DNA of 64,000 nt from Caballeronia temeraria (GTDB lineage: Bacteria; Pseudomonadota; Gammaproteobacteria; Burkholderiales; Burkholderiaceae), in contig NZ_FCOI02000004.1 in assembly GCF_001544795.2 (NCBI RefSeq), positions 124,001 to 188,000 of the forward strand, read 5' to 3'. Shown piece after piece: positions 7,494 through 61,359 of the stretch. Made by a program: the position numbers and the translations under genes. The first letter of the stretch is position 1. Each line of letters opens with the position of its first letter. Under the pieces are notes generated by a model, which made no database searches, was not told the DNA's origin, and was given only the letters and a program-made list of their open reading frames with translations.

Positions 7494-7526
7494 GATGTCC
7501 ACTCCTGTGCTTGTGTCCGGGACCGG

Positions 7527-8582: not shown

Positions 8583-8626
8583 GGTGAGGTCCGTAAGAGG
8601 CGTGGGTTAGTCTGTCAAGCGACGGC

Positions 8627-9112
8627 TCATTCCGACTTGTTCTTCGGGATGTTCCACTTGCCCGTCACCACGCCGCCCTTCTTCGCGCCGGTGTTGTCCT
8701 GCGGCTGATACTCCATGTTGAATTGCGCGAAGTTGAGCGTGACGCTCTCGGCAACCTGATCCCCGCCGCCCGAGCCCACCGAATGGCTGCTGATGAGCAC
8801 TTCCTTGAGCGTGATCTTCAGATACTCGACCGGATCGGTGCCGCCCGCCTTGCGCAGCGTGAGCACGGCCTCGGGCATGTGCACGCCCTGGCAGCACGAC
8901 TGCACGATGGTCGGCGAGCTTTTATCGACATACTTGCTGATCGTGAGGTCCTGCACCGCCGCGGTTCCGGTGCCGCCGCCCGTGCCGGTGTGCGTGGTGC
9001 CCGTCTGCGCGCACCCCCACGACCAGCTCAACACTTCGATCTCTTCGGTGTGACCCACCGCCAGAGATTCACCCTTGATATCGCCCAGCTTGAGAAACAT
9101 ATCCACAGCCAT
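8627..9112 (-). CDS. hcp: Type VI secretion tube protein Hcp (TssD)
   Basis: Hcp forms the hexameric rings of the T6SS inner tube, and is both structural part and secreted marker or effector carrier. The 161-residue protein begins MAVDMFLKLGDIKGES and has the family blocks EEIEVLSWSWG, VQDLTISKYVDKSSP and AVLTLRKAGG. A glycine/threonine-rich loop is seen at about residues 40-50. A GGAGA ribosome-binding site precedes the ATG. It is the first T6SS gene here, ahead of tssA; in many systems hcp instead lies between tssC and tssE. Confidence 0.97.
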   Translation of the reverse strand: MAVDMFLKLGDIKGESLAVGHTEEIEVLSWSWGCAQTGTTHTGTGGGTGTAAVQDLTISKYVDKSSPTIVQSCCQGVHMPEAVLTLRKAGGTDPVEYLKITLKEVLISSHSVGSGGGDQVAESVTLNFAQFNMEYQPQDNTGAKKGGVVTGKWNIPKNKSE

Positions 9113-9171
9113 GTCAGTCTCCAGAGAAAAATGCGCCTTGCGGCACAGGCAAAATTCGCGTCGCCATTGGA

Positions 9172-9191
9172 TCGCGAAGCTTGGTTCGCGA
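9172..9191. promoter_or_regulatory. Perfect inverted repeat upstream of hcp
   Basis: TCGCGAA and TTCGCGA form a perfect 7-bp inverted repeat around a 6-base spacer, 60-80 bp upstream of the hcp start codon. It could be an operator for the T6SS operon or an RNA hairpin between the upstream 77-residue gene and hcp. No T-tract follows, so a terminator is less likely. The role is inferred from position only. Confidence 0.35.
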
Positions 9192-9264
9192 GCTTGATTC
9201 AGCCCGCATTGATTCGGATGCCTAATCTATATCGATGCTTCCGCGCGTTCGAAACGCCACTCAT

Positions 9265-9498
9265 TCAGGCGAGCGCACGGCGGATCGCCACCGCCACGGC
9301 TGTCACGTCGCCGCGCTCGCACAGCGCCGCCCAGCTTTCAAGCGTGTCGCGGCTCACCGCCGGCGCTTCGCAAAGCTGCGCAAATCGTTCGAGCGTTGCC
9401 GTCGAACCGGCTATGCTATGAAAACGTTCGCGTCCGATGCACGCGTCCAGCATGACCGCCATGCCTGCCTGCCGGGCCCGGTCGAGGAGGGTCTCCAT
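9265..9498 (-). CDS. Hypothetical 77-residue protein
   Basis: I do not recognise a family. The protein is about 77 residues, alanine-rich, predicted helical and soluble, with two cysteines in the middle (CIGRE and LCEAP) and one near the end (ALCERGD). The start METLLDRARQAGM is chosen because a good GGAGA site lies just upstream; longer readings extend into the divergent promoter region. It is transcribed away from the ECF sigma gene, and its upstream region carries a GGAATA element matching the one in front of the sigma gene. It may therefore belong to that sigma regulon. Confidence 0.6.
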   Translation of the reverse strand: METLLDRARQAGMAVMLDACIGRERFHSIAGSTATLERFAQLCEAPAVSRDTLESWAALCERGDVTAVAVAIRRALA

Positions 9499-9575
9499 GA
9501 TCTGTCTCCTATTCGGTGGTTCGAGTGCGCGCCGTTGCGCGATCCGTGACCCGAAAACAGTCGCCCCCGTCCGCT

Positions 9576-9634
9576 TATTCCGCAAAAAAATCGAAAAATT
9601 TCCGGAATAGATCGGCGTCTGGAGTGTTGTCAAT
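9576..9634. promoter_or_regulatory. Divergent ECF-type promoter pair
   Basis: TATTCCG (9576-9582) and CGGAATA (9603-9609) face each other around an A/T-rich centre. Read outward, each gives GGAATA: on the plus strand followed after 16 bases by GTTGTC (about 9626-9631), and on the minus strand followed after 17 bases by GTTTTC. GGAA-type -35 elements with a short GTC/GTT -10 are typical of ECF sigma factors, which usually control their own genes. I infer divergent, autoregulated promoters for the sigma operon and the 77-residue gene. Confidence 0.45.
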
Positions 9635-9665
9635 CATGAGCGCGCCCATCACAGGAGCTGCCCCG

Positions 9666-10199
9666 ATGAACGACGACGATCTGCCGACCGTCCTGCCGAC
9701 GCTGTTGCCGCGGCTATGGCGGTTCGCTTTGAGGCTGACGCAGAATCAGCACGACGCCGAGGATCTGGTGCAGCGCGCCTGCGTGCGGGCGCTGGAGCGG
9801 CGCAGTCAGTTGCAGCCGGGGACGTCGACGTTGAGCTGGCTCTTTTCGATCGTGCATTCGACCTGGATGAACGAACTGCGCGCCCGTTCGATTCGCAGCC
9901 GCGGCAGCATGGACTGGCAGGACGAGGAGATCGAATCGTTCGCCGATCCGTCGGCGCGCAATCCGGAACTGGATATGCTGCATCGCCAGGTGATCGACGC
10001 GGTCGAGGCGCTGCCCGAAGCGCAGCGCGTCGTGATGGTGCTGGTGGCGATTGAGGGCCTGAGCTATCGCGAGGCGGCCGAAGTGCTCGACGTGCCGATC
10101 GGCACGGTCATGAGCCGGCTGTCGCGGGCGCGGCTGACGATCGGTCAAAAATTCAGCGTGCAGGCGCCGGCGGCAGTTAGGAAAGGGGAATCCTTATGA
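9666..10199 (+). CDS. ECF-family RNA polymerase sigma factor
   Basis: A group 4 (ECF) sigma factor of about 177 residues that directs RNA polymerase to a stress regulon. Region 2 is seen as RLTQNQHDAEDLVQRACVRA and region 4 as EAQRVVMVLVAIEGLSYREA followed by the recognition helix IGTVMSRLSRAR. The ATG at 9666 has an AGGAG site 8 bases upstream. The earlier ATG at 9637 would lie at or before the proposed transcription start. The stop overlaps the next gene's ATG (ATGA), pairing it with its anti-sigma factor. Confidence 0.9.
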   Translation: MNDDDLPTVLPTLLPRLWRFALRLTQNQHDAEDLVQRACVRALERRSQLQPGTSTLSWLFSIVHSTWMNELRARSIRSRGSMDWQDEEIESFADPSARNPELDMLHRQVIDAVEALPEAQRVVMVLVAIEGLSYREAAEVLDVPIGTVMSRLSRARLTIGQKFSVQAPAAVRKGESL

Positions 10200-11026
10200 T
10201 GAATGTCGATGATTCGCTGCTGATGTCGTACGTCGACGGCGAGGTTTCGCCGGAACAGCGCGCGGAAATCGAAGCGGCAATCGCCCACTCCGACGAACTG
10301 GCGGCGCGCGCAGCGGCGCTGCAGGCGTCGGTGCTGCCGTATCGCGCCGCGTACGACCGGCAAACGGTGCCGCCCGTGCCGGAAAGCCTCACGCGCCGCA
10401 TCGAGGAACTGGTGAGCGTCAGCACGACGCAGGAGCGCAAGGCGTCGCGCGGCTCACGCCGTTTTCCGATGCAATGGGCGGCCGCGGCCTTCGTCGCGGG
10501 CGCGATCTGCTCGGGCGTGCTCACCGGCTATCTCGGCGGCTTCAATCCGTTGAAGCGCGGCGCCGATCCGTGGGTGCAGAGCGTGGCGGACTATCAGGTG
10601 CTCTACGGACGCGACACGGTCGCCAATCTGCGGGAAGACAAGGCCAGCACGGAGCAGGTTCTGGCCGATATCCATCAGCGCGACGGCATGCCGATCGCGG
10701 TTCCGGATCTGCGTCAGGTCGGGCTCAAGTTCAAGCGCGTGCAGCGCCTGAACTACCATGACCGCCCGCTCATCCAGATGGTGTATCTGCCGGAGCGCGG
10801 CGATCCGGTCGCGCTGTGCGTGATCGAGGAAAACGAAGGCGACGCGCCCGTGCGCTCGGGTCAGGCCGGCGAAATGAAGACGGTCACGTGGCGCGCGAAC
10901 CGGCTCGCTTACGTGCTGCTTGCCAAATCGCCTTCCATCGATCTGCAGGCGGTCGGCAGCAGCATCGCCGGCGGGAAGACCGCGCCGCTATACAGCGACC
11001 GCGCGGACGGAGCACGCGACAGCTAA
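10196..11026 (+). CDS. Membrane anti-sigma factor
   Basis: This 276-residue protein most likely holds the ECF sigma factor inactive at the inner membrane. The N-terminal about 75 residues form the anti-sigma domain (LLMSYVDGEVSPEQRAEIEA). A single membrane helix spans about 92-113, followed by a periplasmic domain of about 160 residues that would sense the signal. The zinc-binding HxxxCxxC motif of ZAS anti-sigma factors is absent. Its start overlaps the sigma gene stop by 4 bp, the standard arrangement for co-translated sigma/anti-sigma pairs. Confidence 0.85.
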   Translation: MMNVDDSLLMSYVDGEVSPEQRAEIEAAIAHSDELAARAAALQASVLPYRAAYDRQTVPPVPESLTRRIEELVSVSTTQERKASRGSRRFPMQWAAAAFVAGAICSGVLTGYLGGFNPLKRGADPWVQSVADYQVLYGRDTVANLREDKASTEQVLADIHQRDGMPIAVPDLRQVGLKFKRVQRLNYHDRPLIQMVYLPERGDPVALCVIEENEGDAPVRSGQAGEMKTVTWRANRLAYVLLAKSPSIDLQAVGSSIAGGKTAPLYSDRADGARDS

Positions 11027-11043
11027 CGCACGCGTGCGCCGCA

Positions 11044-11505
11044 TCACTCGACGGCGGCCAGCGCCAGATCGATGCCCGACTGGCGAATGCCCGTCGCCGC
11101 CGCCAGCGTGCCGACGCTCGACAGGTTTTTGTGATCGAGCTGCCCGCCGATATGGATGACGTTCACGTGCGTGGCGCTCGCGAGTTCGCGCACGATCTGG
11201 AAGTCGTTGGTGACGACCGTCATGTCCGACAACTCGACGATATGCGGCACGAACGACAGCATGGTCGTGCCGGCATCGAGATAAATCGACATTCCGGAGC
11301 GCAGACCTTCGGCGGCGCGCCGCGCGATGGCCTGCTTCTGCGGCTGCTCGACGACCGCCTTCGACTGATGGCTCGGCTCGCTGTTCAGATGACTCGCGAT
11401 GCGCACGCCGCCCGGCACCGTATAGACAAACCCGGCTTCTTCGAGCGCGGCGATATCGCGTCGAACCGTCATGTGCGAACAGTTGAACGATTCCATCAAC
11501 TGGGC
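11044..11505 (-). pseudogene. DeoR-family regulator, truncated at both ends
   Basis: The reading contains a recognisable DeoR core: the end of the helix-turn-helix (SHMTVRRDIAALEEAGFVYT), a linker, and part of the sugar-phosphate sensor domain (YLDAGTTMLSFVPHI, VVTNDFQIVREL, SSVGTLAA). The first about 20 residues of the HTH are missing because the gene runs into the truncated aldolase on the opposite strand. The last about 80 residues are missing because it stops beside the anti-sigma gene. It cannot be functional in the normal way. The frame stays open to 11847, but that extension is antisense to the aldolase. Confidence 0.75.
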
Positions 11506-12066
11506 AGCGCGGGCAACATCAGCGCGCGCTGCGACGACGGCTGGCTCATCACGCCGACCGACGCCTGTCTCGGCCGGCTCGATCCCGCCGATATTGCGAA
11601 AGTCGATGCGCAAGGCCGGCATGTGTCCGGCGCACGGCCATCGAAGACGCTGGAGTTGCATCGCCAAATCTACGAAAACAATGCCGATACGCGCGGCATC
11701 GTGCATACGCATTCGACGTCGCTCGTTGCGCTGACGCTCGCGGGCGTGTGGAGCGATGAAGACGTGCTGCCGCCCATCACGCCGTATTACGTGATGAAGG
11801 TCAGGCACGTGCCGCTCGTGCGATATCGCCGTCCGGGCGACCCGCAAGTGGCCGCCGAAATCGCGGCGCGCGCGGCGTCGGTGCGGGCCGTGCTACTCGA
11901 GCGGCCCGGGCCGGTGGTGTGGGAGCGCAGCGTCTCGCATGCTTCGTGTGCGCTCGAAGAGCTCGAAGAAACCGCGCGTCTCTGGCTCATGACGACGCCG
12001 CGCCCCGCTCCGCTCGATCAATCCGCCATCGACGAGTTGTGCCGCACGTTCAACCTGCGCTGGTAG
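11503..12066 (+). pseudogene. OtnC-like class II aldolase/adducin protein, 5'-truncated
   Basis: The protein resembles 3-oxo-tetronate 4-phosphate decarboxylase (OtnC) and related class II aldolases. Seen are GSAGNISARCDDGWLITPTD, LGRLDPADIAKVDAQGRHVS, the metal-binding GIVHTHSTS and the C-terminal CALEELEETARLWL. The usual first 25-30 residues before GSAGNIS are absent, and upstream sequence belongs to the antisense DeoR remnant. A GTG near 11475 could give an aberrant product. The pair looks like the two ends of an operon joined by a deletion that removed a regulator 5' end, intervening genes and this gene's 5' end. Confidence 0.75.
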
Positions 12067-12079
12067 CGGCATCGCACGG

Positions 12080-13093
12080 TCAGGGCGTCGGTGCGTCCTG
12101 ACGAATCAGCTCACGGCGCTTCAGTTCCGCCCAGAACTGCGGCGGTATCTCCGTGCGGAAGGTCCGGACGTTGTCGTCGAGTTGCGCGACGGTGCGCACG
12201 CCCGGAATGTTCGTCGGGATGGCGGGATGCCCGAGCACGAATTGCAGGGCCGCGGCTTTGAGCGGGACTGCGTATTCCTCGCAAACCTGCTCCATCTTGC
12301 GCACGCGCGCCAGAATGTCCTCCGGCGCCGGCGCGTAGTTGTACTTCGCGCCGGGGATTGCGCCGGTCGCGAGAATGCCGCTGTTGTAGCCGCCGCCGAG
12401 AATCACCGACACCTGCTGCTTTTCGCACAGCGGCAGAAAGCCGTCGAGCGCGTCCTGTTCGAGCAGCGTGTAGCGGCCCGCGAGCAGCAGGCAATCGAAG
12501 TCCTGCCGGCGGATCGCTTCGTGCGCGACCTGCCATTCGTTGACCCCGAGCCCGACCGCCTTCACGACGCCTTCGTCGCGCAGTTTCAGCAGCGCTTTCG
12601 ATGCACCCGCCATCGCGGCATCGAACATCTCGGGCTGACGCGCTCCGTGCGTGAAGACGTCGATATCGTGAATCAGCGCGATATCGATATGCTCCAGCGC
12701 GAGACGCTGCAAACTGTCTTCGATGGAGCGCATCGTGCCGTCGTAGCTATAGTCGAAGACGGTATCGAACGGCAAGCCGTCGACCCACGGCGCGAAGTGG
12801 ATCTCGCCGCGCTTGCGTGGCTTGAGCAGGCGGCCGACTTTGGTCGACAGCACGAACTCATCGCGCGGATACCATCGCAAGCCCTGTCCGCAGCGTGCTT
12901 CGCTCAATCCGTGACCGTACATCGGCGCGGTGTCGAAGTAGCGCACGCCTGCGTCCCACGCAGCCTTGATCAGCGCGGCCGAATCCTCTTCGCTAATCGG
13001 CCTGAAGATGTTGCCGATCGGTGCGGCGCCGAAGCCCATCAACGTCGTCTCGAGCCCGGAACGCGGCCATTTGCGTTTGGCGACTGGATCCAT
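12080..13093 (-). CDS. Aldo/keto reductase (aldose 1-dehydrogenase-like)
   Basis: A 337-residue TIM-barrel NAD(P)-dependent oxidoreductase. The catalytic tetrad can be placed: Asp and Tyr in RYFDTAPMYGHGLSE, Lys in VLSTKVGR, and His in DIALIHDID. The sequence style is that of the L-fucose / D-threo-aldose 1-dehydrogenase and pyridoxal dehydrogenase branch, so oxidation of a free sugar to the lactone is the likely reaction. The exact substrate is unknown. The start at MDPVAKRKW has a GGAG site 8 bases upstream. The gene lies 25 bp downstream of a sugar-binding protein on the same strand. Confidence 0.85.
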   Translation of the reverse strand: MDPVAKRKWPRSGLETTLMGFGAAPIGNIFRPISEEDSAALIKAAWDAGVRYFDTAPMYGHGLSEARCGQGLRWYPRDEFVLSTKVGRLLKPRKRGEIHFAPWVDGLPFDTVFDYSYDGTMRSIEDSLQRLALEHIDIALIHDIDVFTHGARQPEMFDAAMAGASKALLKLRDEGVVKAVGLGVNEWQVAHEAIRRQDFDCLLLAGRYTLLEQDALDGFLPLCEKQQVSVILGGGYNSGILATGAIPGAKYNYAPAPEDILARVRKMEQVCEEYAVPLKAAALQFVLGHPAIPTNIPGVRTVAQLDDNVRTFRTEIPPQFWAELKRRELIRQDAPTP

Positions 13094-13118
13094 CGATATC
13101 TCCTGTTGTGCGTACGCT

Positions 13119-14366
13119 TTATTTGACCTTCGCGGCGGCGGCAAGCTTGCGCGCGCCCTCTTTCGCGTCCTCGTTCGAGTTCATGAAATTCGTCACGACG
13201 TCGGTGATTGCGCCGGCCGTCACCGGAGACTGAAGCTCACCGAAGGCCAGCGAAGGAAAGAATCCGCCCGACTTGATCGTTGCCTGCTCGTCCGCGCGCG
13301 ATTTCTTCGCGCAACTGTCGAACTTGTCCATCGGCACGTCGAGCCTGACGGGAATCGATCCCTTGTTGAGACTGAACTGCTCCTGGAACGCGGGCGACAT
13401 GATCGTTTTCGCCATCGCGATCTGGCCCGGCGTCGCGTCCTTCTTGCCGTTCTGCTGAAAGAACACGAATGCATCCGCCGTGTACGTGTACGCGTTCGAC
13501 GTGCCGGGCGCAGGCGCGCACACGAAATCGACATCCGCCTTCTTGTTCGCGTTGGCGAACTCGCCTTTCGCCCAGTCGCCCATGAACTGCATGCCGCCCG
13601 AGCCGGAAATCACCATCGCCGTGGCGAGATTCCAGTCGCGGCCGTGATAGCTCTTGTCGAAGTACGTCCGGATCTTCTGCACGGTCTCGAAGACCTGCAC
13701 CATCTGCGGCGACGTCAGCGTTTTCTGATCGAGATCGACGAGCGCCTTCCGATAGAAGTCCGGGCCCTGCGACAGCACGACCGTCTCCCAGATCGTCATG
13801 TCCTGCCACGGCTGGCCGCCGTGCGCGACGGGCGTGATGCCTGCCGCGCGGAACTTGTCGGCGAGCGCGAAGAACTCCGGCCATGTCGTGGGCGGCGTGC
13901 CTCCGACCTTGTCGAGATCCGCTTTATTGATCCACAGCCAGTTGATCCGATGCACCGAGAACGGCGCGGCGACATAATGCCCGCCCGACTTCACGTCGCT
14001 GTCGATCTGCGCGGGAATGTGGCTCTTCCAGTCGGTCGCGGACGGATCGACCGTCACCAGCACGCCCTGATCCGCCCAGTCCTGAATCAACGGCCCCTTG
14101 ATCTGCGCGGCAGACGGCGCGTTGCCCGAGATCACCTGCGTCTTCAGCGCCGTCATCGCCGCCGTGCCCGATCCGCCCGCGACGGCGAAATCCTTCCACT
14201 CGTAACCTTGCTTGCCCATGTCGTCCTTGAGCACGCGAATGGCTTTCGATTCGCCGCCGGACGTCCACCAGTGCAGGACCGACATCTGTTCCGCGGCCAG
14301 CACGGCATGCGTCCCGGCGACGAACATCGCGACGGCCGCTGCGGCCGACGTCAGTGAGTGTTTCAT
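13119..14366 (-). CDS. Periplasmic sugar-binding protein of an ABC transporter
   Basis: A 415-residue extracellular solute-binding protein family 1 member, similar in style to glucose/mannose-binding GtsA proteins. An N-terminal signal peptide of about 25 residues ends at VLAAEQ. The mature start MSVLHWWTSGGESKAI and later blocks GMQFMGDWAKGEF and TADAFVFFQ are typical of the family. It would capture a sugar in the periplasm, but no permease or ATPase gene lies nearby, so it is an orphan here. It probably forms a unit with the downstream aldo/keto reductase. Confidence 0.88.
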   Translation of the reverse strand: MKHSLTSAAAAVAMFVAGTHAVLAAEQMSVLHWWTSGGESKAIRVLKDDMGKQGYEWKDFAVAGGSGTAAMTALKTQVISGNAPSAAQIKGPLIQDWADQGVLVTVDPSATDWKSHIPAQIDSDVKSGGHYVAAPFSVHRINWLWINKADLDKVGGTPPTTWPEFFALADKFRAAGITPVAHGGQPWQDMTIWETVVLSQGPDFYRKALVDLDQKTLTSPQMVQVFETVQKIRTYFDKSYHGRDWNLATAMVISGSGGMQFMGDWAKGEFANANKKADVDFVCAPAPGTSNAYTYTADAFVFFQQNGKKDATPGQIAMAKTIMSPAFQEQFSLNKGSIPVRLDVPMDKFDSCAKKSRADEQATIKSGGFFPSLAFGELQSPVTAGAITDVVTNFMNSNEDAKEGARKLAAAAKVK

Positions 14367-14427
14367 TGCAGTCTCCGAATCTTTTCTTTATGGATGATGG
14401 GACGCGACTTTCGCGCGCCTCTGTCTA

Positions 14428-15672
14428 CTACAAGTCCAGCCCGAGCTGCGCACGGCCGAGCGGCGACAGATCGTCGACGGTCGCGCGGCCCGTGAAATCG
14501 ACTTCGAAGTGATCGGCGGGGAAATCGGGCGGGCTTTCGCCTTTCAGGAAGCTCGGCAACTGACGCTTCAGATACGCGTCGTTCTTCGCGCAGGCGGGCG
14601 CGGAGGCGATGTACATCACGTTGCTGTAACCCGATCCCTTGTGCTCGTCCTCGACCGCGTGGATGACGTCGCTGTGCCAGAACACGGTGTCGCCCGCTTC
14701 CATCTTCGGAATGGACGAGAGCGCTTCGAACAGCGGCGCGTGATATTCCTGCCTGATCGAGAGCGCGCGGCCGGGCATGGCGCCGCACAGGTCGTCGTCG
14801 GCGACATCGTCCTGAAGCGCGCGCAAGAGGATGTACACCATCGAGTTGGCGATCGGCACGAGTTGCAGCGTGCCGTCGCCCGGGCCTTGCGGCGTCAACG
14901 CGGTCCAGCCCTGGAACGTGCGGAACATCGAGCAGACGGCGGGCGATGCGATCTCTTCCACATCGGTGCGGAAAGCGGCGTCGAACGCATCGTATTCGCG
15001 CCAGTTGCCGGAGAACACGTGGCGATACACCTTGCGGAAATTGCTTTCGATCCAGCGTTCGACCGACCCGCCATCGCAATGCGCCGACAAACCGAGCGAC
15101 GCCGATCCGGGTGGCCGGCGACGCAGACGGTCGGCATAAACGGGCACGTGTTCCGGATCGAAGTGCACACGTCCTTCGCTTTCGGTGCGCCAGAGTTTGT
15201 TGAGGAAAACGCGCGCCGCGGTCAGCGATTCCGACTGACGCGCCAGCACTTGCGGCTTCGACCAGTACACGCCGTAAATCTGCGGCTTGCTCGATGCCAG
15301 TTGTCCGAAGTATTTGTCTTCGGCGCGATTTTCGAGGCGCTTGTCGAGACGATTCCGCTCGACGTAATCCGCGATGTCGTCGTCCCACTGGCGCACCTGC
15401 TCGCGCGGAAACACGTTGCGAATCACGCACGCGCCGCGCGCTTTGACGAGCGCGATCGCATCCGCGCTCACGCGTCCTTCGGCGATATCGGCAAAGCGGA
15501 TATCGGGAATGACGTTCTCTCCGCGATCGCGCTGCGCAGCGATGCGCTTCGCTTCCTCGCCGATCGCCTTTTCGACTTCGGCAAAGACCTCGCGATAGTT
15601 CGGCAGCGCAGCGCGCAGCTCCTTTTTCGCCTGCCGGATCGCACTTGGCAAGTCATCGATGTGCAGCGCCAT
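14428..15672 (-). CDS. DUF1479 (YbiU-like) putative Fe/2-oxoglutarate oxygenase
   Basis: A 414-residue DUF1479 protein. The family is of unknown function with a likely jelly-roll fold of the Fe(II)/2-oxoglutarate oxygenase type. Possible metal ligands are the His-Cys-Asp of [13 protein letters not shown] and the histidines of [15 protein letters not shown]. The start [10 protein letters not shown] is chosen because an AAGGAG site lies 6 bases upstream; an earlier in-frame methionine would run into the AraC promoter region. It is divergent from the AraC regulator and in Burkholderiaceae such genes often sit in sugar-utilisation clusters. Confidence 0.85.
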
Positions 15673-15764
15673 GATCGCTCCTTGTAAATTTCTGTGCGAA
15701 AAGCATATGACGCCCGCGCGATCGAGAGTGATACTATTCAGGCGATTCATTTGCGCTTTCGGCC

Positions 15765-16715
15765 ATGAAACCAGCCTACGAGCATGTCGAGTTCGGCGAG
15801 GACTGTTCGGTCCGGGTTTACCATCGGCAACTTCCGCGTATTCCGTTCGAATGGCATCACCATCCGGAATACGAGTTGACGCTGACGATGAACAGCCACG
15901 GCAAGCGCTACATCGGCGACTCGGTCAACGACTATCAAGCCGAGGATCTCGTCCTCGTGCCGCCGGATTTGCCGCATACGTGGTCGTCGAACCGTTCGAT
16001 CGATGCTGCCCTGCCGCAAGTGGCCATCGTCATATGGTTCGACGGCGAATGGGCGCGGCGCATGGCCGATTGCTGCCGCGAGTACGAGCCGCTGCGCAAG
16101 CTGCTGCGCCGGGCCGCGTGCGGGCTGGCGTTCGAGCCGCCCGCCGGGGAATGGATGCGCGGCCGTCTGGAGCCGTTGCTCTCGACCGTGCCGCGCGAAC
16201 GTCTGAGCGCGGCGCTCGACATTCTCTGCACGCTCGGCGACGCGCCCGGCCATCCGCTCGCTTCGCCGAGCGCCTTCAATCAGACGAACGCGGGTCCATC
16301 CGGTCATGAGCCCGAGCGCATCAACCGTGTCCTTTCGATGATCGATGCCCGCTTCGCCGAGCCGCTGCGGATGGCGGAACTCTGCGCGGCAGCGAGCCTG
16401 TCGGAACGCACGCTGACGCGTTACTTCATGCAGCATATCGGCGAGAGCGTCGGGCGATATATCGCTCGCGTGCGCATCGGGCATGCGTGCCGGATGCTGG
16501 GCGACACGTCGCTGCCCGTGTCGGTCATCGCTGCGCGCTCGGGGTTTGCCAACGTCGCGAATTTCAATCGGCAGTTCAAGGCCGCCAAGCAGACGACACC
16601 GGCGGAGTATCGTCGCCGGTTCCGGGCGGCGGGCGTCGCGGAAGAGGCGTCGGCGACCAGTCTGACCGAACGGCCGCCATCGCTTCAGCAGAAACGGCAA
16701 CGCGGCGCTCAGTAG
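15765..16715 (+). CDS. AraC-family transcriptional regulator
   Basis: A 316-residue regulator with an N-terminal cupin ligand-binding domain ([14 protein letters not shown] near residue 30, [12 protein letters not shown] near 65-75) and a C-terminal AraC domain with two helix-turn-helix units (about 195-300: [20 protein letters not shown] and [20 protein letters not shown]). It is divergent from the DUF1479 gene with about 90 bp between starts, so it probably regulates that gene and the sugar genes beyond. The effector is likely a sugar, by context. Confidence 0.88.
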
Positions 16716-16726
16716 CGTTCACGTCG

Positions 16727-16858
16727 ATGCCCGAAATCCGCAGCCTGCCGTCGCCGGTGACGCTGTACACGGGCGATGACTTCAACTATCCCGATCTCGT
16801 CGCGGACGACGATCGCGGCTTCTCGCACGCACTGCGAGTCACACAGCCTGCGCGATGA
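16727..16858 (+). pseudogene. Remnant of a DUF993 (dihydrodipicolinate synthase-like) gene
   Basis: A 43-codon reading contains TLYTGDDFNYPDLVADDDRG followed by FSHAL, which matches my recollection of a conserved block in the C-terminal half of DUF993 proteins (about 380 residues). Everything before and after is missing; the reading runs into the 3' end of the convergent LysR gene. It is best read as the residue of a deleted sugar-catabolic gene. The assignment rests on this one short block. Confidence 0.5.
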
Positions 16859-17735
16859 ACTCACGCAGCCATCGATGCGCCGGATCGCGATGCACGCGTT
16901 CGTGCCAGTACATCGACATTTCGTAGCCGGGCACGTCGACGGGCGGCGCGACGATGCGCAACTCCGGCCAGCGCTTCGCGAGCCTGAGCGGCTGCATCGA
17001 AACGAGATCGGTCGATGCCAGCACGGAGCGCACGAACAGGAAGTGCGGCACGGAAAGCGCGACGTGTCTTTGCATGCCGAACGTCGCGAGCAGGTCATCG
17101 GTCGGGCCGAAGAATCCGCCGCCATCGGGCGACACGATCACATGCTCCAACGCGCAGAACTGCGCGAGCGTCGGCCGCCGCTTCAAGCGCGGATGATCCT
17201 TGCGTCCCACGAGCACATAGCTTTCCGTGAACAGCACCTGCTGATGAAAGTTGGCGGTTTCCGGCGATGTGATGTGAAACGCGAGATCGATCTCGCCGTT
17301 CTCCGCCTGCTTTGCGAGCCGCGGCGGCAACATCTCCAGCACCGCGATCCGCGTATGCGGCGCGGCCGCACGCAAGCCGCTCAACGCGGGCAGCAGCACG
17401 GTCGATTCGCTGTAGTCGGTCGCGGCGATGCGCCATGTGTTGTCGGCGGTGGCGGGATCGAACGCGGCTTCTGGCGACACCGCGCGTTCGAGCGACGCCA
17501 GCGCTTCGCGCAACGGCTCGCGCAGGCTTTGCGCGCGTGCAGTCGGACGCATGCCGCGCGGACCGGGCAGCAACAGAGGATCGTCGAAGATATCGCGCAG
17601 CTTGGCCAGATGCACGCTCACGGAAGGCTGTGAGAAATGCAGACGCTCGGCCGCGCGCGTGACGTTCTGTTCGGCGAGTAGCACGTCGAGCGTGAGCAGC
17701 AAGTTGAGATCGAGCCTTCTCAAGGTATTATTCAT
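16839..17735 (-). CDS. LysR-family transcriptional regulator
   Basis: A 298-residue LTTR. The winged HTH is at the N-terminus (LDLNLLLTLDVLLAEQNVTR, AAERLHFSQPSVSVHLAKLR), followed by the periplasmic-binding-like effector domain. The sequence is of the NodD/NahR/LinR-like type. It is divergent from the quinone reductase gene with about 90 bp between starts, so that gene and perhaps the glutathione transferases are its likely targets. Its 3' end overlaps the DUF993 remnant. Confidence 0.88.
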   Translation of the reverse strand: MNNTLRRLDLNLLLTLDVLLAEQNVTRAAERLHFSQPSVSVHLAKLRDIFDDPLLLPGPRGMRPTARAQSLREPLREALASLERAVSPEAAFDPATADNTWRIAATDYSESTVLLPALSGLRAAAPHTRIAVLEMLPPRLAKQAENGEIDLAFHITSPETANFHQQVLFTESYVLVGRKDHPRLKRRPTLAQFCALEHVIVSPDGGGFFGPTDDLLATFGMQRHVALSVPHFLFVRSVLASTDLVSMQPLRLAKRWPELRIVAPPVDVPGYEMSMYWHERVHRDPAHRWLREFIAQAV

Positions 17736-55568: not shown

Positions 55569-55742
55569 ATGAAACGCTTGACCACACAGGTGATGTGCCA
55601 CCCGCTCGTTGCACTCGCAGCGCTCTACGTGACCGATTTGCTGATGAGATCCGACTCAGGACTCTCCGGCGCGATCTTCGTCGTCGCGGCGCGATCGATA
55701 TCGAAATTCGTCGACGCCATGCGCAGTAAAGCCGGTACCTGA
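55569..55742 (+). CDS. Hypothetical 57-residue protein
   Basis: A short protein with a moderately hydrophobic first half (about 9-25, CHPLVALAALYVTDLLM) and a second hydrophobic stretch (LSGAIFVVAARSI). A GAGGT site lies 9 bases before the ATG. It could span the membrane once or twice. No family is recognised. It is the first gene of the stress island. Confidence 0.55.
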   Translation: MKRLTTQVMCHPLVALAALYVTDLLMRSDSGLSGAIFVVAARSISKFVDAMRSKAGT

Positions 55743-55898: not shown

Positions 55899-56159
55899 AT
55901 GACCCAACCGGATGACGTGATCTATAAAGGGCACGTATTGAGCGCGATCGCCATATCGGAGCGTGACGGATATGCGGCCATGCTCGTCGTGCGCGATCCC
56001 TGCGGCACGCGCCGCTCGAGCGGCATGCTCGGCGAATTCACAAGCGCGAGCGGCGCCGTTCGCTATGCCGTCGCTTATGGCATGGCCGAAATCGATCACC
56101 GGCAGTCAGCGCAGCACCCGCGCTGGTCCGCCGCCGCAAGCATGAGCCAGCAACGCTGA
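55899..56159 (+). CDS. Small hypothetical protein, paralogue of the next gene
   Basis: An 86-residue soluble protein. Its core GYAAMLVVRDPCG...GMLGEFTSASGAVRYAVAYGMAEID aligns with the core of the protein encoded at 56227: both have a short beta-rich segment, a G-F/FAS-x-GA motif, and a final helix ending in ID. Similar short proteins are common in Burkholderia. Function unknown. It may respond to the same signal as the neighbouring Usp genes. Confidence 0.65.
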   Translation: MTQPDDVIYKGHVLSAIAISERDGYAAMLVVRDPCGTRRSSGMLGEFTSASGAVRYAVAYGMAEIDHRQSAQHPRWSAAASMSQQR

Positions 56160-56226: not shown

Positions 56227-56457
56227 ATGATCATCTATCATCGGGGAGCGGCTTTTCAGCCCTCCGCCACGCGTGTAGGCAATGCGTTTGTCGCAACCGC
56301 AAAGATTCTCGAAGAGGACGGCCATGCAACCTCGCTCGGCAATCTCGGCGCGTTCGCCAGCAAGGACGGCGCGCTCGGTTTCGCAGTCCGCTGCGCGACC
56401 GCCTTCATCGACGGTGACGAACTGCCGTTGCCGCCTTTCCAGTTGACGAGGCAATAG
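56227..56457 (+). CDS. Small hypothetical protein, paralogue of the previous gene
   Basis: A 76-residue soluble protein that begins MIIYHRGAAFQPSATRVGNA and has the core GNLGAFASKDGALGFAVRCA, followed by TAFIDGDELP. The pattern GxxGxFxSxxGAxxxAxxxAxxxID is shared with the 86-residue neighbour, so the two look like an old tandem duplication. No known motif or cofactor site is visible. It precedes the histidine kinase gene by 45 bp. Confidence 0.65.
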   Translation: MIIYHRGAAFQPSATRVGNAFVATAKILEEDGHATSLGNLGAFASKDGALGFAVRCATAFIDGDELPLPPFQLTRQ

Positions 56458-56502: not shown

Positions 56503-57585
56503 ATGACCGCGACCCGACCCGACGACCCGCACGCCCCATTGCCGCCTTCGCTGCCGACGGACACGCCTTTCCGCCTGCTCGTCGAAGCGGTCGAAGACTA
56601 TGCGATCTTTCTGCTCGACGCCTACGGCCGCGTCGCGACGTGGAACAACGGCGCGCGCAGGATCAAGGGCTATGACGCGAGCGAGATCGTCGGCCGTCAC
56701 TTTTCCGTGTTTTATCCGCCCGACGCCATCGCGGCGCGCAAGCCGCAGCAGGAGCTGGAGATGGCGGCGCGCGCCGGGCGCGTCGAGGACGAAGGCTGGC
56801 GCATCCGCAAAGACGGAAGCCGCTTCTGGGCCAACGTGGTCGTCACCGCGCTGCACGATCCGCAGGGGACATTGATCGGCTTCGCCAAGATCACGCGCGA
56901 CATGACCGACCGCTTGCGGCTCGCGGAACTGCAACATGCGCGCGAATTGTCGGCGCATGTGCAGAGCGCGCTGGAAAACGAGCGCGCGTCGATCTCCCGC
57001 GAATTGCACGACGATCTCGGCCAGCAGCTCGCCGCGCTGAAGATGCAGGTGTCGATACTCCGGACCGGCGCGGCGGACGCGCATGTCGTGCAGCAGGCGC
57101 TCGCGCAGATCGATACGATCATCGGCTCCGTGCGGCGCATCTCGGCGGGCCTGCGCCCGCCCGTGCTCGACGACCTCGGGCTTTTCGCCGCCATCGACTG
57201 GCTCGTCTGCGACTTTCGCCGCCGCTTCGACCTCGCGATCCGTCTGGATATCGACGGCGACGAGGACGGACTCGACACAGCCGCGTCCACGTCGATTTTC
57301 CGGCTCGTGCAGGAGGCGCTCACGAACGTCGTGCGTCACGCGCACGCGAGCGAGGTGCGCATCTCGATCGTCTGCGCGCGCTCGCGCTGCATTCTGACGA
57401 TCGAAGACGATGGCCGCGGCGCCGATATTACGCGTGCCCGTCCGGACGGCACCTTCGGCCTGCTCGGCATGGGCGAGCGCGTGCGCCAGCTCGGCGGTGC
57501 AATCGAGTTTCGCAGCGCGCCGGGCGAGGGATTTTCCATCCGCGCGGATATTCCGCTTCCCGGACCCGCCCGCGACGAACCTTGA
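56503..57585 (+). CDS. PAS-domain sensor histidine kinase, NarL type
   Basis: A 360-residue soluble kinase. The N-terminal PAS domain (about 20-145, FRLLVEAVEDYAIFLLDAYG to FAKITRDMTDR) is followed by HisKA_3 with the phospho-His in ISRELHDDLGQQLAALK (about 175) and an HATPase domain (FRLVQEALTNVVRHAHAS, EDDGRGAD, GLLGMGERV). No membrane helix, so it senses a cytoplasmic signal such as oxygen or redox state. No response regulator is adjacent. A TTG start at 56476 is possible. Confidence 0.88.
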   Translation: MTATRPDDPHAPLPPSLPTDTPFRLLVEAVEDYAIFLLDAYGRVATWNNGARRIKGYDASEIVGRHFSVFYPPDAIAARKPQQELEMAARAGRVEDEGWRIRKDGSRFWANVVVTALHDPQGTLIGFAKITRDMTDRLRLAELQHARELSAHVQSALENERASISRELHDDLGQQLAALKMQVSILRTGAADAHVVQQALAQIDTIIGSVRRISAGLRPPVLDDLGLFAAIDWLVCDFRRRFDLAIRLDIDGDEDGLDTAASTSIFRLVQEALTNVVRHAHASEVRISIVCARSRCILTIEDDGRGADITRARPDGTFGLLGMGERVRQLGGAIEFRSAPGEGFSIRADIPLPGPARDEP

Positions 57586-57622
57586 CCTGAGTCAAACGCT
57601 CGGGCGCGCCTGTCCGTAGACT
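57582..57622 (+). promoter_or_regulatory. FNR/Anr-type class II promoter of first Usp gene
   Basis: TTGAC-CTGA-GTCAA (57582-57595) is a symmetric variant of the FNR/Anr box TTGAT-N4-ATCAA. Its centre is 76.5 bp before the Usp ATG. TAGACT at 57617-57622 is the -10 at the position predicted if the box is centred at -41.5. The box begins at the last codon of the kinase gene. Confidence 0.7.
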
Positions 57623-57664
57623 CGATCGCACGTCAGCGCCAACACATCGAATCAGGAGGCCGCC

Positions 57665-58132
57665 ATGTACAAGCGCATTCTCGTGCCTATCGACGGCAGT
57701 CCGACTTCCCTGCACGCGCTCGACGAAGCGATCCAGATCGCACTCGCGAACAAGGCGCAGATGCAGCCGCTTTTCGTCGTGGACATTCAGCCCGTCAGCT
57801 ACGACGCCACGAGCGCGTTCTATCCCAGCCTGCGCGACGCGCTGCTCGAAGAAGGTCGGCGGCTCGCGGCGACGGCCGCCGATCGCATGACGCAAGCCGG
57901 CGTCGAAGGCGTCCCGCGCGTCTGCGAAGTCGATTATCTCGGCGACGACATCCCGCAGCGCATTCGTCATTGCGCCGACGATTTCCACGCCGATCTCGTC
58001 GTCATGGGCACACACGGGCGGCGCGGATGGCGTCGTCTCGTGCTCGGCAGCGTCGCCGAAGGATTCGTGCGCCGCGCGCGCTGTCCCGTTCTGCTGGTGC
58101 CGGGCAGCGAGACTGGCGAACCGCACGCGTGA
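57665..58132 (+). CDS. Universal stress protein (UspA family)
   Basis: A 155-residue UspA-fold protein. It begins MYKRILVPIDGSPTSLHALD and has the ATP-binding motif VMGTHGRRGWRRLVLGSVAE (G-2x-G-9x-G-S type), so it probably binds ATP. UspA proteins support survival under growth arrest, low oxygen or other stresses. A good ribosome-binding site (AGGAGG) precedes the ATG. An FNR/Anr-type promoter lies upstream. Confidence 0.93.
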   Translation: MYKRILVPIDGSPTSLHALDEAIQIALANKAQMQPLFVVDIQPVSYDATSAFYPSLRDALLEEGRRLAATAADRMTQAGVEGVPRVCEVDYLGDDIPQRIRHCADDFHADLVVMGTHGRRGWRRLVLGSVAEGFVRRARCPVLLVPGSETGEPHA

Positions 58133-58141
58133 ACGGATCGC

Positions 58142-58447
58142 TCAGGCGCGGCTTGAAGAAGACTGGGCGCGCGCCTCGCGGAAGCGGAAAAATCCGCTGC
58201 GCAGCATGACCGACGTGCCGCCGACGCGGCTCAGAACGTGCTCGGCGGCGCCTTCGATCGATGCGCGATGGCTCTCGAACGCCTGCTGCAGATCTTCCTC
58301 GCGCCATGACGCCGCGCCGAAATGATCCTCCAGCGCCTCGGCGGAAATGGTGCATTCGATCGGCTCGCCATCCGCGAACGCGGCGAACGTGAGCGAAGGG
58401 GCATCGCCCTGATAGACGGGCGGCTGGGTCGGAAACGTGATGATCAT
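58142..58447 (-). CDS. DUF1488 family protein
   Basis: A 101-residue protein matching the DUF1488 pattern: an N-terminal beta segment (VYQGDAPSLTFAAFADGEPI), ECTISAEALEDHFGA and a C-terminal helical part. The last residues RAQSSSSRA are low complexity. Function unknown. It is preceded by a perfect FNR box with class II spacing, so it is probably induced at low oxygen. It converges with the first Usp gene. Confidence 0.8.
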   Translation of the reverse strand: MIITFPTQPPVYQGDAPSLTFAAFADGEPIECTISAEALEDHFGAASWREEDLQQAFESHRASIEGAAEHVLSRVGGTSVMLRSGFFRFREARAQSSSSRA

Positions 58448-58487
58448 GCCGATACCTCGTGGACCGTGGATGCGAACATATCCACTC

Positions 58488-58529
58488 AGTCTTGGACACC
58501 GATGCGCGGCGCGTATTGATCTGGATCAA
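58488..58529 (-). promoter_or_regulatory. Perfect FNR/Anr box and -10 for the DUF1488 gene
   Basis: TTGAT-CTGG-ATCAA (58516-58529) matches the FNR/Anr consensus exactly. Its centre is about 75.5 bp before the DUF1488 start. On the minus strand AAGACT (58488-58493) is at the -10 position expected for class II activation. The box overlaps the stop of the upstream Usp gene by 4 bp. Confidence 0.78.
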
Positions 58530-58960
58530 GACGCCTGCTTCGCGCGCGTGAGCATGACCGGGCACGTCGAGCGTCGTACGAAGGCTTCCGCGACGCTGCC
58601 GAGCGCCACCCGGCGAAATCCGGTGCGGCCGTGCGTGCCCATCACGACGAGATCCACCGGCATCTGCTCCACGCGCCGCTGCAGGCATTTCGCGATGGTG
58701 TCGGTCACGTTGCGCGTCTCGGCCAGCTCCGTTTCGCACGCGATGCCCGCGTCGAGCACGCGAGCGTACGCGATGTCCAGCGCATGCCCGCTTTCCTCGC
58801 GCACATCCACGCGGTACGCCGCCGGAAATGACGAAAGCGCGGCCACATCGATCACGGAAACGATATAAATCTTCGCGCGCGCGCCTATCCGGATCGCTTC
58901 GTCGAGCGCGCGTTCCGAGCATTCGCTACCGTCTATCGCGACAAGAATCGTGTGGTACAT
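58526..58960 (-). CDS. Universal stress protein (UspA family)
   Basis: A 144-residue UspA protein, beginning MYHTILVAIDGSECSERALD and carrying the ATP-binding motif VMGTHGRTGFRRVALGSVAE. The start at MYHTIL is preferred over a GTG 18 bases upstream. It is a clear paralogue of the first Usp gene. The DUF1488 gene follows on the same strand, but with its own FNR-type promoter. Confidence 0.92.
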   Translation of the reverse strand: MYHTILVAIDGSECSERALDEAIRIGARAKIYIVSVIDVAALSSFPAAYRVDVREESGHALDIAYARVLDAGIACETELAETRNVTDTIAKCLQRRVEQMPVDLVVMGTHGRTGFRRVALGSVAEAFVRRSTCPVMLTRAKQAS

Positions 58961-58987
58961 GGTTGTATCGGCATGCACGCTCGCCGT

Positions 58988-59077
58988 TCACGCCGCCCAC
59001 GTCAGTTTGTCGATGCGCACGAGCTTGCGTTCGATGCGCCCCAAGGAAACATCGATCAGCCGGTCCGCCATCCTCAT
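58988..59077 (-). CDS. Possible 29-residue ORF coupled to the alcohol dehydrogenase
   Basis: A short reading (MRMADRLIDVSLGRIERKLV then RIDKLTWAA) starts with an ATG that overlaps the alcohol dehydrogenase stop (ATGA). It is amphipathic and basic, with no own ribosome-binding site. It fills most of the gap before the Usp gene. The overlap suggests coupled translation, but length makes chance possible. Confidence 0.3.
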   Translation of the reverse strand: MRMADRLIDVSLGRIERKLVRIDKLTWAA

Positions 59078-60114
59078 GTCATTTCGATAATGACCTTCAG
59101 CGCGTTCGTTTCCGCCGCACGGCCGAAGGTGTCGTACGCGTCGAGCGCGCGCGCGAGCGTAAAACGGTGCGTGATGAGCTGCTGCGGCTGCAGCCTGCCC
59201 GCGCGCACGGTCTTGAGCAGCATCGGCGTGCTGACGGTGTCGACGAGACGCGTCGTGATACTGATATTACGATCCCACAGCGATTCCAGATGCAGATCGG
59301 CCTTCACGCCGTGCACGCCGACATTCGCGATCGTTCCGCCCGCCGCAACGATCCGCTGGCACAGCTCGAAAGTCGCCGGAATGCCGACCGCCTCCACCGC
59401 GCAATCGACGCCCGCGCCATCGGTCAGACGCATGATCTCGGCGACCGCGTCCGTGCTCTCGATGTCGATGCATCCGCTCGCGCCGAACGTGCGCGCGATT
59501 TCGAGCCGATGCCGGTCGCGATCGATCATCACGATCTGCGCCGGCGCATAGAACTGCGCGGTGAGCAGCGCCGCGAGACCGATCGGCCCCGCGCCGACGA
59601 TCGCAACCGTGCTGCCCGGCTGCACGCGGCCGTTGAGCACGCCGCATTCGAAACCTGTCGGAAGAATGTCGGAGAGCATGACGAGCGCCTCTTCCTCGAC
59701 GCCCGCCGGAATCGGATAGAGGCTAGTATCAGCGTGCGGAATGCGGACGTATTCGGCCTGCGTGCCGTCGATCTTGTGGCCGAGAATCCAGCCGCCCGTC
59801 GCGCAATGCGAATACATGCCGCGCCGGCACGCCTCGCACTTACCGCACGACGAAATGCACGAAATCAGCACGTGATCGCCCGGCTTGAACGCGGACACGG
59901 CCGCGCCGGTTTCTTCGACGATTCCCACGCCTTCATGGCCCAGCACGCGGCCCGGCTCGCAGGTCGGGACGTCGCCCTTGAGGATATGCAGATCGGTGCC
60001 GCAGATGGTCGTGCGCGTCACACGAACGATCGCATCGGTTGCGGCGGCAAGCGCGGGGCGCGGCCGCTCGTCGAGTGATTTGTTGCCGGGACCGTGATAG
60101 ACAAGTGCCTTCAT
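59074..60114 (-). CDS. Zinc-dependent alcohol dehydrogenase
   Basis: A 346-residue medium-chain dehydrogenase. Catalytic zinc ligands are Cys in TTICGTDLHILKG and His-Glu in GHEGVGIVEE; the structural zinc site is CISSCGKCEACRRGMYSHC. The Rossmann motif VAIVGAGPIGLAALL follows. The type resembles aldehyde- or alcohol-oxidising threonine-dehydrogenase-like enzymes found in low-oxygen islands of Burkholderia. It is divergent from a tandem Usp, with a shared FNR-type box. A GGAG site precedes the start. Confidence 0.92.
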   Translation of the reverse strand: MKALVYHGPGNKSLDERPRPALAAATDAIVRVTRTTICGTDLHILKGDVPTCEPGRVLGHEGVGIVEETGAAVSAFKPGDHVLISCISSCGKCEACRRGMYSHCATGGWILGHKIDGTQAEYVRIPHADTSLYPIPAGVEEEALVMLSDILPTGFECGVLNGRVQPGSTVAIVGAGPIGLAALLTAQFYAPAQIVMIDRDRHRLEIARTFGASGCIDIESTDAVAEIMRLTDGAGVDCAVEAVGIPATFELCQRIVAAGGTIANVGVHGVKADLHLESLWDRNISITTRLVDTVSTPMLLKTVRAGRLQPQQLITHRFTLARALDAYDTFGRAAETNALKVIIEMT

Positions 60115-60188
60115 TCGCGAACTCCTTGCGTGGCGCACGACGACGTGCATGACCGCGCCCAGCGTATCGCGATGGCCGCCGCGTCCAG

Positions 60189-60230
60189 TTGATCTGAGTC
60201 AAGGGAAGTGCGGCGACGCTTCCTTAGACT
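60189..60230 (+). promoter_or_regulatory. FNR/Anr-type promoter in the Adh/Usp divergent region
   Basis: TTGAT-CTGA-GTCAA (60189-60202) is one base from the perfect FNR/Anr box. Its centre is 74.5 bp before the tandem Usp ATG, and TAGACT (60225-60230) is the -10, as in front of the first Usp gene. On the minus strand TACGCT (60161-60166) is at the corresponding position for the alcohol dehydrogenase, so one box may serve both. Confidence 0.72.
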
Positions 60231-60269: not shown

Positions 60270-61109
60270 ATGACTTACAGGACGATTCTCGTGCACCTCG
60301 ATACGAGCGCGCGCGCCCATCCTCGGCTGGAAACCGCGTTGCAACTCGCGAAACAGTTCGACGCCTATGTGATCGGCCTCTACGCGGTCTTCGAACCGAA
60401 CGCGCGCGCCTTCAATGTCATGGCAGGCTCCGCCGGCTATTACGACGAGTACGCCGCCATGCGCCGCGAACGGGCCAACGCGCTCGAACGGCTCTTTCAC
60501 GCGGAGCTGAACCGCGCGGGCGTGTCGGGCGAATGGCTCGCGCCGGGTGGCGGGGCGGATCGTGCGGTGCCGCATCACGCGCGTTGCGCCGATCTCGTGA
60601 TCGTGGGCCAGGACGATCCGGGCGATGCCGAATCGTTCATCGGCGAAGGCTTTCGCGAGCATCTGATCCTGTCGGCGGGACGTCCGGTGCTGCTCGTGCC
60701 CTACACGGGCTCTTTCGCCGCCGTCGGCCAGTTTCCGATGATCGCGTGGGATGGCGGACGCGAAGCCGCGCGCGCTGTCCACGACGCATTGCCGTTGCTG
60801 AAGGCGGCCGGGCGCGCGACCATCGTCACGCTCGATGTGCACGCCGGCGACGCGCGCGGCGAGCGCAGCGCGGGCGGCGATATCGCGGCGTGCATCGCGC
60901 GGCATGGCGTCGAAGTCGAGATCGTGCCGGGCGTGGCCGGCACAGAGGCATCGGCGGGCGATGTGCTGCTATCGCGCGCGGCCGATCTCGGCGCGGATCT
61001 CGTCGTGATGGGCGGCTATGGTCATGCGCGTCTGCGCGAGCTCGTCCTGGGCGGCGCGACGCGCACCTTCCTCGAATCGATGACCGTGCCCGTGCTGATG
61101 TCGCATTGA
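60270..61109 (+). CDS. Tandem-domain universal stress protein
   Basis: A 279-residue protein with two Usp domains: the first (about 1-150, TYRTILVHLDTSARAHPRLE) lacks the glycine-rich ATP motif, the second (about 155-279) ends with VMGGYGHARLRELVLGGATR, an ATP-site variant. Such tandem Usps resemble E. coli UspE-like proteins. A GGGGAG site precedes the ATG at 60270. Its promoter has an FNR/Anr-type box. Confidence 0.9.
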   Translation: MTYRTILVHLDTSARAHPRLETALQLAKQFDAYVIGLYAVFEPNARAFNVMAGSAGYYDEYAAMRRERANALERLFHAELNRAGVSGEWLAPGGGADRAVPHHARCADLVIVGQDDPGDAESFIGEGFREHLILSAGRPVLLVPYTGSFAAVGQFPMIAWDGGREAARAVHDALPLLKAAGRATIVTLDVHAGDARGERSAGGDIAACIARHGVEVEIVPGVAGTEASAGDVLLSRAADLGADLVVMGGYGHARLRELVLGGATRTFLESMTVPVLMSH

Positions 61110-61164: not shown

Positions 61165-61359
61165 ATGAACGCGGTATGCCCGCTGCACGGGCCGACGACC
61201 ATCATCCGCACGAACGCCTATGGCTTTCCGGTCTATGCATGCTGTTGCGACGACGTGCCCTATGTCACGCCGCCCGACGCCTGCACGAGAGCGCCGACGC
61301 AGCGCGGCGCGCCCGTCGAGCCGCGCAAGTCCCGGCAGCCGGAACCCGCGAAGGAATGA
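61165..61359 (+). CDS. Small cysteine-containing hypothetical protein
   Basis: A 64-residue protein that starts MNAVCPLHGPTTIIRTNAYG and has cysteines in ACCCDDVP and DACTRAP. CPLHG plus the CCC cluster suggests metal binding. A GAGGAG site lies before the ATG. No family is recognised. It follows the tandem Usp by 55 bp, probably in the same transcript. Confidence 0.6.
   Translation: MNAVCPLHGPTTIIRTNAYGFPVYACCCDDVPYVTPPDACTRAPTQRGAPVEPRKSRQPEPAKE

Follow-up and report, generated by a model that had tools for sequence, protein, structure and literature searches.

A window of 64,000 nucleotides from Caballeronia temeraria (RefSeq assembly GCF_001544795.2, contig NZ_FCOI02000004.1, positions 124,001 to 188,000 of the forward strand; coordinates below are those of this whole stretch) contains an island of universal stress protein (Usp) genes, together with a DUF1488 gene, a zinc alcohol dehydrogenase gene and a PAS-domain sensor kinase gene. 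We conclude, at a probability of roughly 85%, that this is a reduced island of the type of the low-oxygen-activated (lxa) locus of Burkholderia cenocepacia, under class II FNR/Anr control, with oxygen control and regulator binding predicted from sequence. An earlier note on the same DNA had proposed FNR/Anr class II promoters in a small relative of lxa, and genome comparison leaves this the best supported reading. To it we add a closer lxa counterpart on another contig (contig 8), the loss of regulator genes from the window island, and the placement of one box, which is also right for the divergent alcohol dehydrogenase gene.

Promoter architecture of the window island

Three FNR/Anr-type boxes, each followed by NAGACT, had been claimed for the window. 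All three match TTGAY-N4-RTCAA exactly and are the sole matches in the window, even where one mismatch is allowed; each is followed by a -10-like hexamer of the expected form. The elements are as follows (Usp genes are named by the length of their products in residues).

57582..57595, plus strand: box 1, TTGAC-N4-GTCAA, preceding Usp155 and overlapping the kinase stop codon
57617..57622, plus strand: -10-like hexamer TAGACT, after a 21-bp spacer from box 1
58516..58529, minus strand: box 2, TTGAT-N4-ATCAA, preceding DUF1488
58488..58493, minus strand: -10-like hexamer AAGACT, after a 22-bp spacer from box 2
60189..60202, no strand assigned: box 3, TTGAT-N4-GTCAA, between the divergent alcohol dehydrogenase and Usp279 genes
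60225..60230, plus strand: -10-like hexamer TAGACT, after a 22-bp spacer from box 3, on the Usp279 side
60161..60166, minus strand: TACGCT, candidate -10 of the alcohol dehydrogenase gene, at a 22-bp spacer from box 3

This is the arrangement of a class II FNR/Anr promoter, in which a box resembling TTGAT-N4-ATCAA is joined to a -10 element at the distance that a box at -41.5 calls for; if the boxes are so centred, spacers of 21, 22 and 22 bp place the hexamers at about -12 to -7. TAGACT agrees at four of five fixed positions with TAnAAT, the -10 consensus given for B. cenocepacia in PMC4603805. Shuffled windows searched with one mismatch yield a mean of 3.2 matches, so that the bare count of three is not unusual; the unusual feature is that none of the three has a mismatch and that they are clustered, and a Poisson estimate gives approximately 5e-4 for two more sites within 2.6 kb of any one site.

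Measured from the box centre, the ATG lies 76.5 bp away for Usp155 (57665), 75.5 bp for DUF1488 (58447, minus strand) and 74.5 bp for Usp279 (60270). The earlier note took both this distance and the box-hexamer spacing for a shared architecture; the spacing stands, and the agreement in start-codon distance is partly coincidence, the DUF1488 value being 75.5 bp here against 77.5-93.5 bp in 14 relatives. Start-codon distance was dropped as the key shared parameter because it varies for DUF1488 (75.5-93.5 bp) while box-hexamer spacing is steady.

The same elements are the conserved part of the promoters. In the DUF1488 promoters of 15 islands the half-sites are 98.7% conserved, the hexamer 93% and the 22-bp spacer 71%, and for box 1 the half-site and hexamer columns are retained across aligned relatives. 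A further motif of the DUF1488 promoter, GGATAT (58478-58483, minus strand; about -2 to +4), is invariant in 15 of 15.

Distribution of the promoter pattern

The genome is an 8.33-Mb draft in 129 contigs, and the reversed box pattern served as control. TTGAY-N4-RTCAA occurs at 22 sites in it, against 11 for the control; three are in the window, one lies about 36 kb further on the same contig and five fall within 7.8 kb of contig 8. Where the box must be followed by NAGACT 19-24 bp downstream (the coupled pattern) there are five sites, three in the window and two on contig 8, and none for the control; loosening the box to TTGA-N6-TCAA brings one more. With six offsets and both strands of the 22 sites taken into account, 0.08 occurrences of AGACT were expected and five observed. 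A genome scan for the boxes had been suggested by the earlier note; run as a pattern search, it finds coupled sites only in the window and the contig-8 island.

The genus was sampled with 58 genomes, including that of the window. The coupled pattern occurs in 35 of these (64 matches, counted from the listing, and one control match), and in the family its TAGACT form occurs, as read from the table, in 110 of 299 genomes, with two control matches. Inspection of 59 of the 60 distinct genus sequences found an island gene starting no more than 170 bp downstream in 50: a Usp279-type gene in 30, DUF1488 in 13, Usp155 in five, and the kinase and a response regulator once each. Four of the remaining nine precede Usp fragments or Usp293. 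Although spacers of 19-24 bp were allowed, the spacer is 22 bp in 31 cases and 21 bp in 25 (56 of 59), with 20, 23 and 24 bp once each.

Boxes were also counted without the hexamer requirement. Eighty alcohol dehydrogenase loci (1.42 Mb) contain 139 boxes against two controls, and in 28 of the 79 that are long enough, Ensifer and Neorhizobium among them, a box lies within 250 bp upstream of the alcohol dehydrogenase, the control giving none. NAGACT was ruled out as the sole -10 of the regulon, the alcohol dehydrogenase promoters having TAGAGT, TAAAGT, TACAGT, TACACT and others. Among five Burkholderia-type loci, box and TAGACT precede a Usp gene in B. dolosa, lig30 and P. solisilvae and a cytochrome c gene in B. 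lata R-18110; in B. singularis the combination is absent. Boxes also precede genes for two CBS-like proteins in this genome, at L018 9102-9797 (contig 4 near 219896) and L024 1172-1852 (contig 70); these proteins, whose CBS-like identity was read from sequence, are possibly further members of the regulon.

A sister island on contig 8

The box-rich sister island occupies positions 7123-17129 of locus L016 (contig 8: 108000-127900). It holds tandem Usp genes, two boxes 48 bp apart (L016 8931/8979), a gene labelled flavodoxin-like from its sequence, a further Usp gene, an ion channel gene and a gene without assignment; then come DUF3564, cytochrome c and, after a box, a second DUF1488 and a second alcohol dehydrogenase. 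Its regulatory genes are a Crp-family regulator, a response regulator of the LuxR type and a PAS kinase that is preceded by a box with CAGACT. This island is a better counterpart of the lxa core than the window island, because the order BCAM0284-0288 in the published lxa table (cytochrome c, hypothetical protein, alcohol dehydrogenase, CRP regulator, response regulator), together with the Usp genes listed there (BCAM0290, 0291, 0292, 0294), matches its content (PMC4981469). It was rejected as the only counterpart, since one relative, L155, combines components of the two islands at a single locus.

Three Crp-family proteins, on contigs 8, 9 and 16, came out of a PF00325 search in which 150 of 191 candidates were scored. 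Those of contigs 8 and 9 have CxxCx5C, a central cysteine and ETVSR, and so carry the four-cysteine sensor signature of FNR/Anr; the contig-16 homologue is without the N-terminal cysteines and has ETVSR. The contig-9 anr gene lies directly downstream of a Usp gene, a position likewise described for anr2 of B. cenocepacia H111 in PMC9104464.

Regulator loss and probable supply from elsewhere

Comparison with relatives indicates that regulator genes which they retain have disappeared from the window island. Eight relatives carry a response regulator and Anr inside the island (L142, L146, L148, L150, L151, L152, L157 and L159), as does C. zhejiangensis (L210), where the island sits on a 1.09-Mb record labelled plasmid p1; the pair has DUF1488 on one side and the kinase or Usp155 on the other. 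In the window 9 bp separate the end of Usp155 (58132) from that of DUF1488 (58142), and tblastn within the window found no credible remnant of the response regulator or Anr gene. The turbans record (L060) is without the regulators, Usp155 and Usp279 at this place.

Other parts of the island are reduced too. A whole flavodoxin-like gene lies between alcohol dehydrogenase and Usp144 in L142, L148 and L157, where the window keeps 24 residues. Two boxes with centres 46-48 bp apart precede Usp279 in L142, L148, L150, L151, L152 and L157, against one in the window, and the window intergenic region between alcohol dehydrogenase and Usp279 falls 42-45 bp short of its length in L142, L148 and L157. The remaining box 3 has a 22-bp spacer in both directions, to TAGACT towards Usp279 and to TACGCT towards alcohol dehydrogenase. 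Tandem boxes 46-48 bp apart between divergent genes are seen in L016, L142, L148, L150-L152, L155, L157, L158 and L179. Smaller islands (L140, L143, L145) retain DUF1488 with its box and small proteins, to which L153 and L154 add Usp144. At L148 10642-12242 (genome G012) one internal TGA in the response regulator and a short kinase match would fit decay of the module in that genome as well.

With a cut-off of E 1e-80, the response regulator was found in 38 of the 58 genus genomes, and in this genome on contig 8 only, in a form 82-87% identical to the relatives' island versions. Another copy elsewhere accompanies a regulator-bearing island in one of eight genomes; where a box-bearing island is without the response regulator, a copy elsewhere is present in six of seven, one of them at only 71% identity (Fisher p 0.01, or 0.07 on adding three genomes that have the small-protein gene sm76, no island and no response regulator; relatedness not corrected). 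These counts suggest that the response regulator/Anr module tends toward one copy per genome across the relatives. As the window island has lost both genes, its activator would have to come in trans, and supply from elsewhere in the genome is what we infer for the window promoters.

Proposed mechanism and alternative explanations

Under the mechanism that we propose, each of the three boxes would be bound by an FNR/Anr dimer centred near -41.5. As oxygen falls, FNR/Anr would keep its iron-sulphur cluster, bind, and activate RNA polymerase at the adjoining -10 in class II fashion, switching on Usp155, DUF1488 and Usp279; from box 3 it would also act in the opposite direction, on alcohol dehydrogenase and, probably, on Usp144. 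The activator in trans would be the Anr of the contig-8 sister island or the general Anr on contig 9, the orphan PAS kinase may signal to the contig-8 response regulator, and a role of the induced genes in survival is presumed. As to how this state arose, we lean, with some reserve, to a history in which the island shed its response-regulator/Anr module and is now a satellite run from elsewhere, recombination between boxes about 47 bp apart left a single box, and one dimer serves the Usp gene and the alcohol dehydrogenase operon divergently.

Several observations weigh against this mechanism. Five of the 59 coupled cases inspected (L167-L171) have no island gene downstream, the coupled pattern is absent from 23 of the 58 genus genomes, and a strict box is missing from the 250 bp upstream of the gene in 51 of 79 alcohol dehydrogenase loci. 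The records of B. cenocepacia and B. multivorans reached through DUF1488 (L211, L212) contain neither a box nor another island gene in 36 kb. In G006 the DUF1488 box and hexamer are kept although the response regulator of this family is absent; the module is therefore not needed for the box to be retained, and general Anr probably suffices for the DUF1488 promoter there.

The boxes might instead serve a Crp/FNR protein without oxygen sensing, of the DNR or FixK kind, responding to nitric oxide or another signal. The contig-16 homologue would be a candidate, for it combines the absence of the cysteines with the same ETVSR and has a box about 1.3 kb away. We consider this unlikely, given that relatives hold Anr inside islands of the window type, that the contig-8 Anr, with its cysteines, lies among boxes, and that low oxygen is reported to induce lxa genes in B. 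cenocepacia (PMC6127331, PMC4505428). Persistence of the boxes by descent or chance in a decaying island that is no longer controlled, which the gene losses and the missing second box would fit, is a shade less credible again: the three boxes and their hexamers are intact at conserved spacing, the shared box 3 fits both -10 elements, and in the DUF1488 promoter box and hexamer are better kept than the spacer. Finally, a draft of 129 contigs invites the suspicion that the response regulator and Anr genes are missing from the window through faulty assembly. This is very improbable, as the junction is interior to a 455-kb contig, the assembly has one response regulator of this family at the cut-off used, the relatives' island versions are too different from it to have collapsed, and the turbans record likewise is without both genes between DUF1488 and the kinase.

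Other features of the island

Pfam confirmed the assignments of the earlier note for all three Usp proteins, the zinc alcohol dehydrogenase, DUF1488 and the PAS kinase. The start codon of the kinase is the first ATG, by our choice, and the names of the four small proteins are our own.

55569..55742, plus strand: sm57, adjoining the island in several relatives
55899..56159, plus strand: sm86, a distant paralogue of sm76
56227..56457, plus strand: sm76, with a copy at least 88% identical in 18 of 58 genus genomes, its own included
56503..57585, plus strand: PAS/HisKA_3/HATPase sensor kinase (Pfam), an orphan here, beside the response regulator and Anr in relatives
57665..58132, plus strand: Usp155 (Pfam Usp)
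58133..58141, no strand: 9-bp gap, the site of the response regulator and Anr in relatives by island comparison
58142..58447, minus strand: DUF1488 protein (Pfam PF07369)
58526..58960, minus strand: Usp144 (Pfam Usp)
58991..59062, minus strand: flavodoxin-like gene remnant, the last 24 residues (tblastn E 3e-5 to the contig-8 gene)
59074..60114, minus strand: zinc alcohol dehydrogenase (Pfam)
60270..61109, plus strand: Usp279, with two Usp stretches (Pfam Usp)
61165..61359, plus strand: sm64, at the same island border in relatives

None of the four small proteins has a match in Pfam or NCBIfam. In a single comparison sm86 and sm76 are 31% identical over 61 residues (E 3e-5); sm76 has four copies in the genome and relatives in 49 of the 58 genus genomes, and its named matches are nearly all hypothetical proteins of Caballeronia or Burkholderia. 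No box lies within 200 bp upstream of sm57, sm86 or sm76 in the loci examined. Six boxes are listed upstream of sm64, and in L159 and L161 the same box precedes alcohol dehydrogenase. The window kinase, 39% identical to that of contig 8, has PAS_9 and HisKA_3 by Pfam; the heme sensor FixL, with which it may be compared, has a HisKA domain and a heme histidine. Sequence comparison with solved structures gives no match for DUF1488 at E 0.1 and returns Usp structures for Usp155. The closest named relatives of the alcohol dehydrogenase come from Caballeronia, most likely the home of the genome too; it is 92% identical to that of a record titled Burkholderia turbans and 94.8% to that of C. zhejiangensis.

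Comparison with known systems

The lxa locus extends from BCAM0275A to BCAM0323 in B. cenocepacia (PMC4981469, PMC6127331). The earlier note had asked how its gene content compares, and we made this comparison by the published gene list and not by the J2315 sequence. Usp genes, DUF1488 (BCAM0277) and zinc alcohol dehydrogenase (BCAM0299) are listed for lxa and clustered in the window island; the CRP regulator and response regulator listed for lxa have their counterparts here on contig 8, the window retaining only the kinase of such regulatory genes (PMC4981469, PMC6127331). Box and TAGACT likewise occur in Burkholderia-type loci, as described above. The window island differs from lxa in its size, about 6 kb against some 50 genes, and in being without its own regulator and paired with a second island. 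Three CRP-family genes are given as putative lxa regulators in PMC4981469, which also describes B. lata strain 383, a different strain from R-18110, as lacking lxa, and three FNR-type genes are reported as induced in B. cenocepacia.

The FNR regulon of Herbaspirillum seropedicae, as described in PMC5934665, is similar in its betaproteobacterial FNR proteins, in a class II fnr1 promoter centred at -42 and in having Usp genes among the most induced targets. The DosR dormancy regulon of Mycobacterium tuberculosis, to which lxa is likened in PMC6127331, is another Usp-rich hypoxia regulon. It differs in that the promoter sites here are FNR boxes, and no shared ancestry is claimed. DosS/DosR pairs a HisKA_3 kinase with a LuxR-type response regulator, like the island kinase and regulator. 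The kind of system is thus already known, since FNR-type and CRP-family lxa genes and a class II fnr promoter with induced Usp genes have been published. In the open-access literature we found no precedent for the island pair, the regulator-free satellite, the shared box or the spacing rule, and no paper joining Caballeronia, universal stress protein and low oxygen.

Taken at the strength given above, these results extend a regulon of the lxa type, known from cystic-fibrosis Burkholderia, to Caballeronia-like bacteria, where it would take the form of two related islands. The promoter signature, a box followed after 21-22 bp by NAGACT, lets much of the regulon be read from genomes. The single shared box 3 offers a natural way to learn whether one FNR-type dimer can serve two class II promoters. 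What the reduced islands keep longest, DUF1488 and its box together with the small proteins at the flanks, includes genes of unknown role that merit testing.

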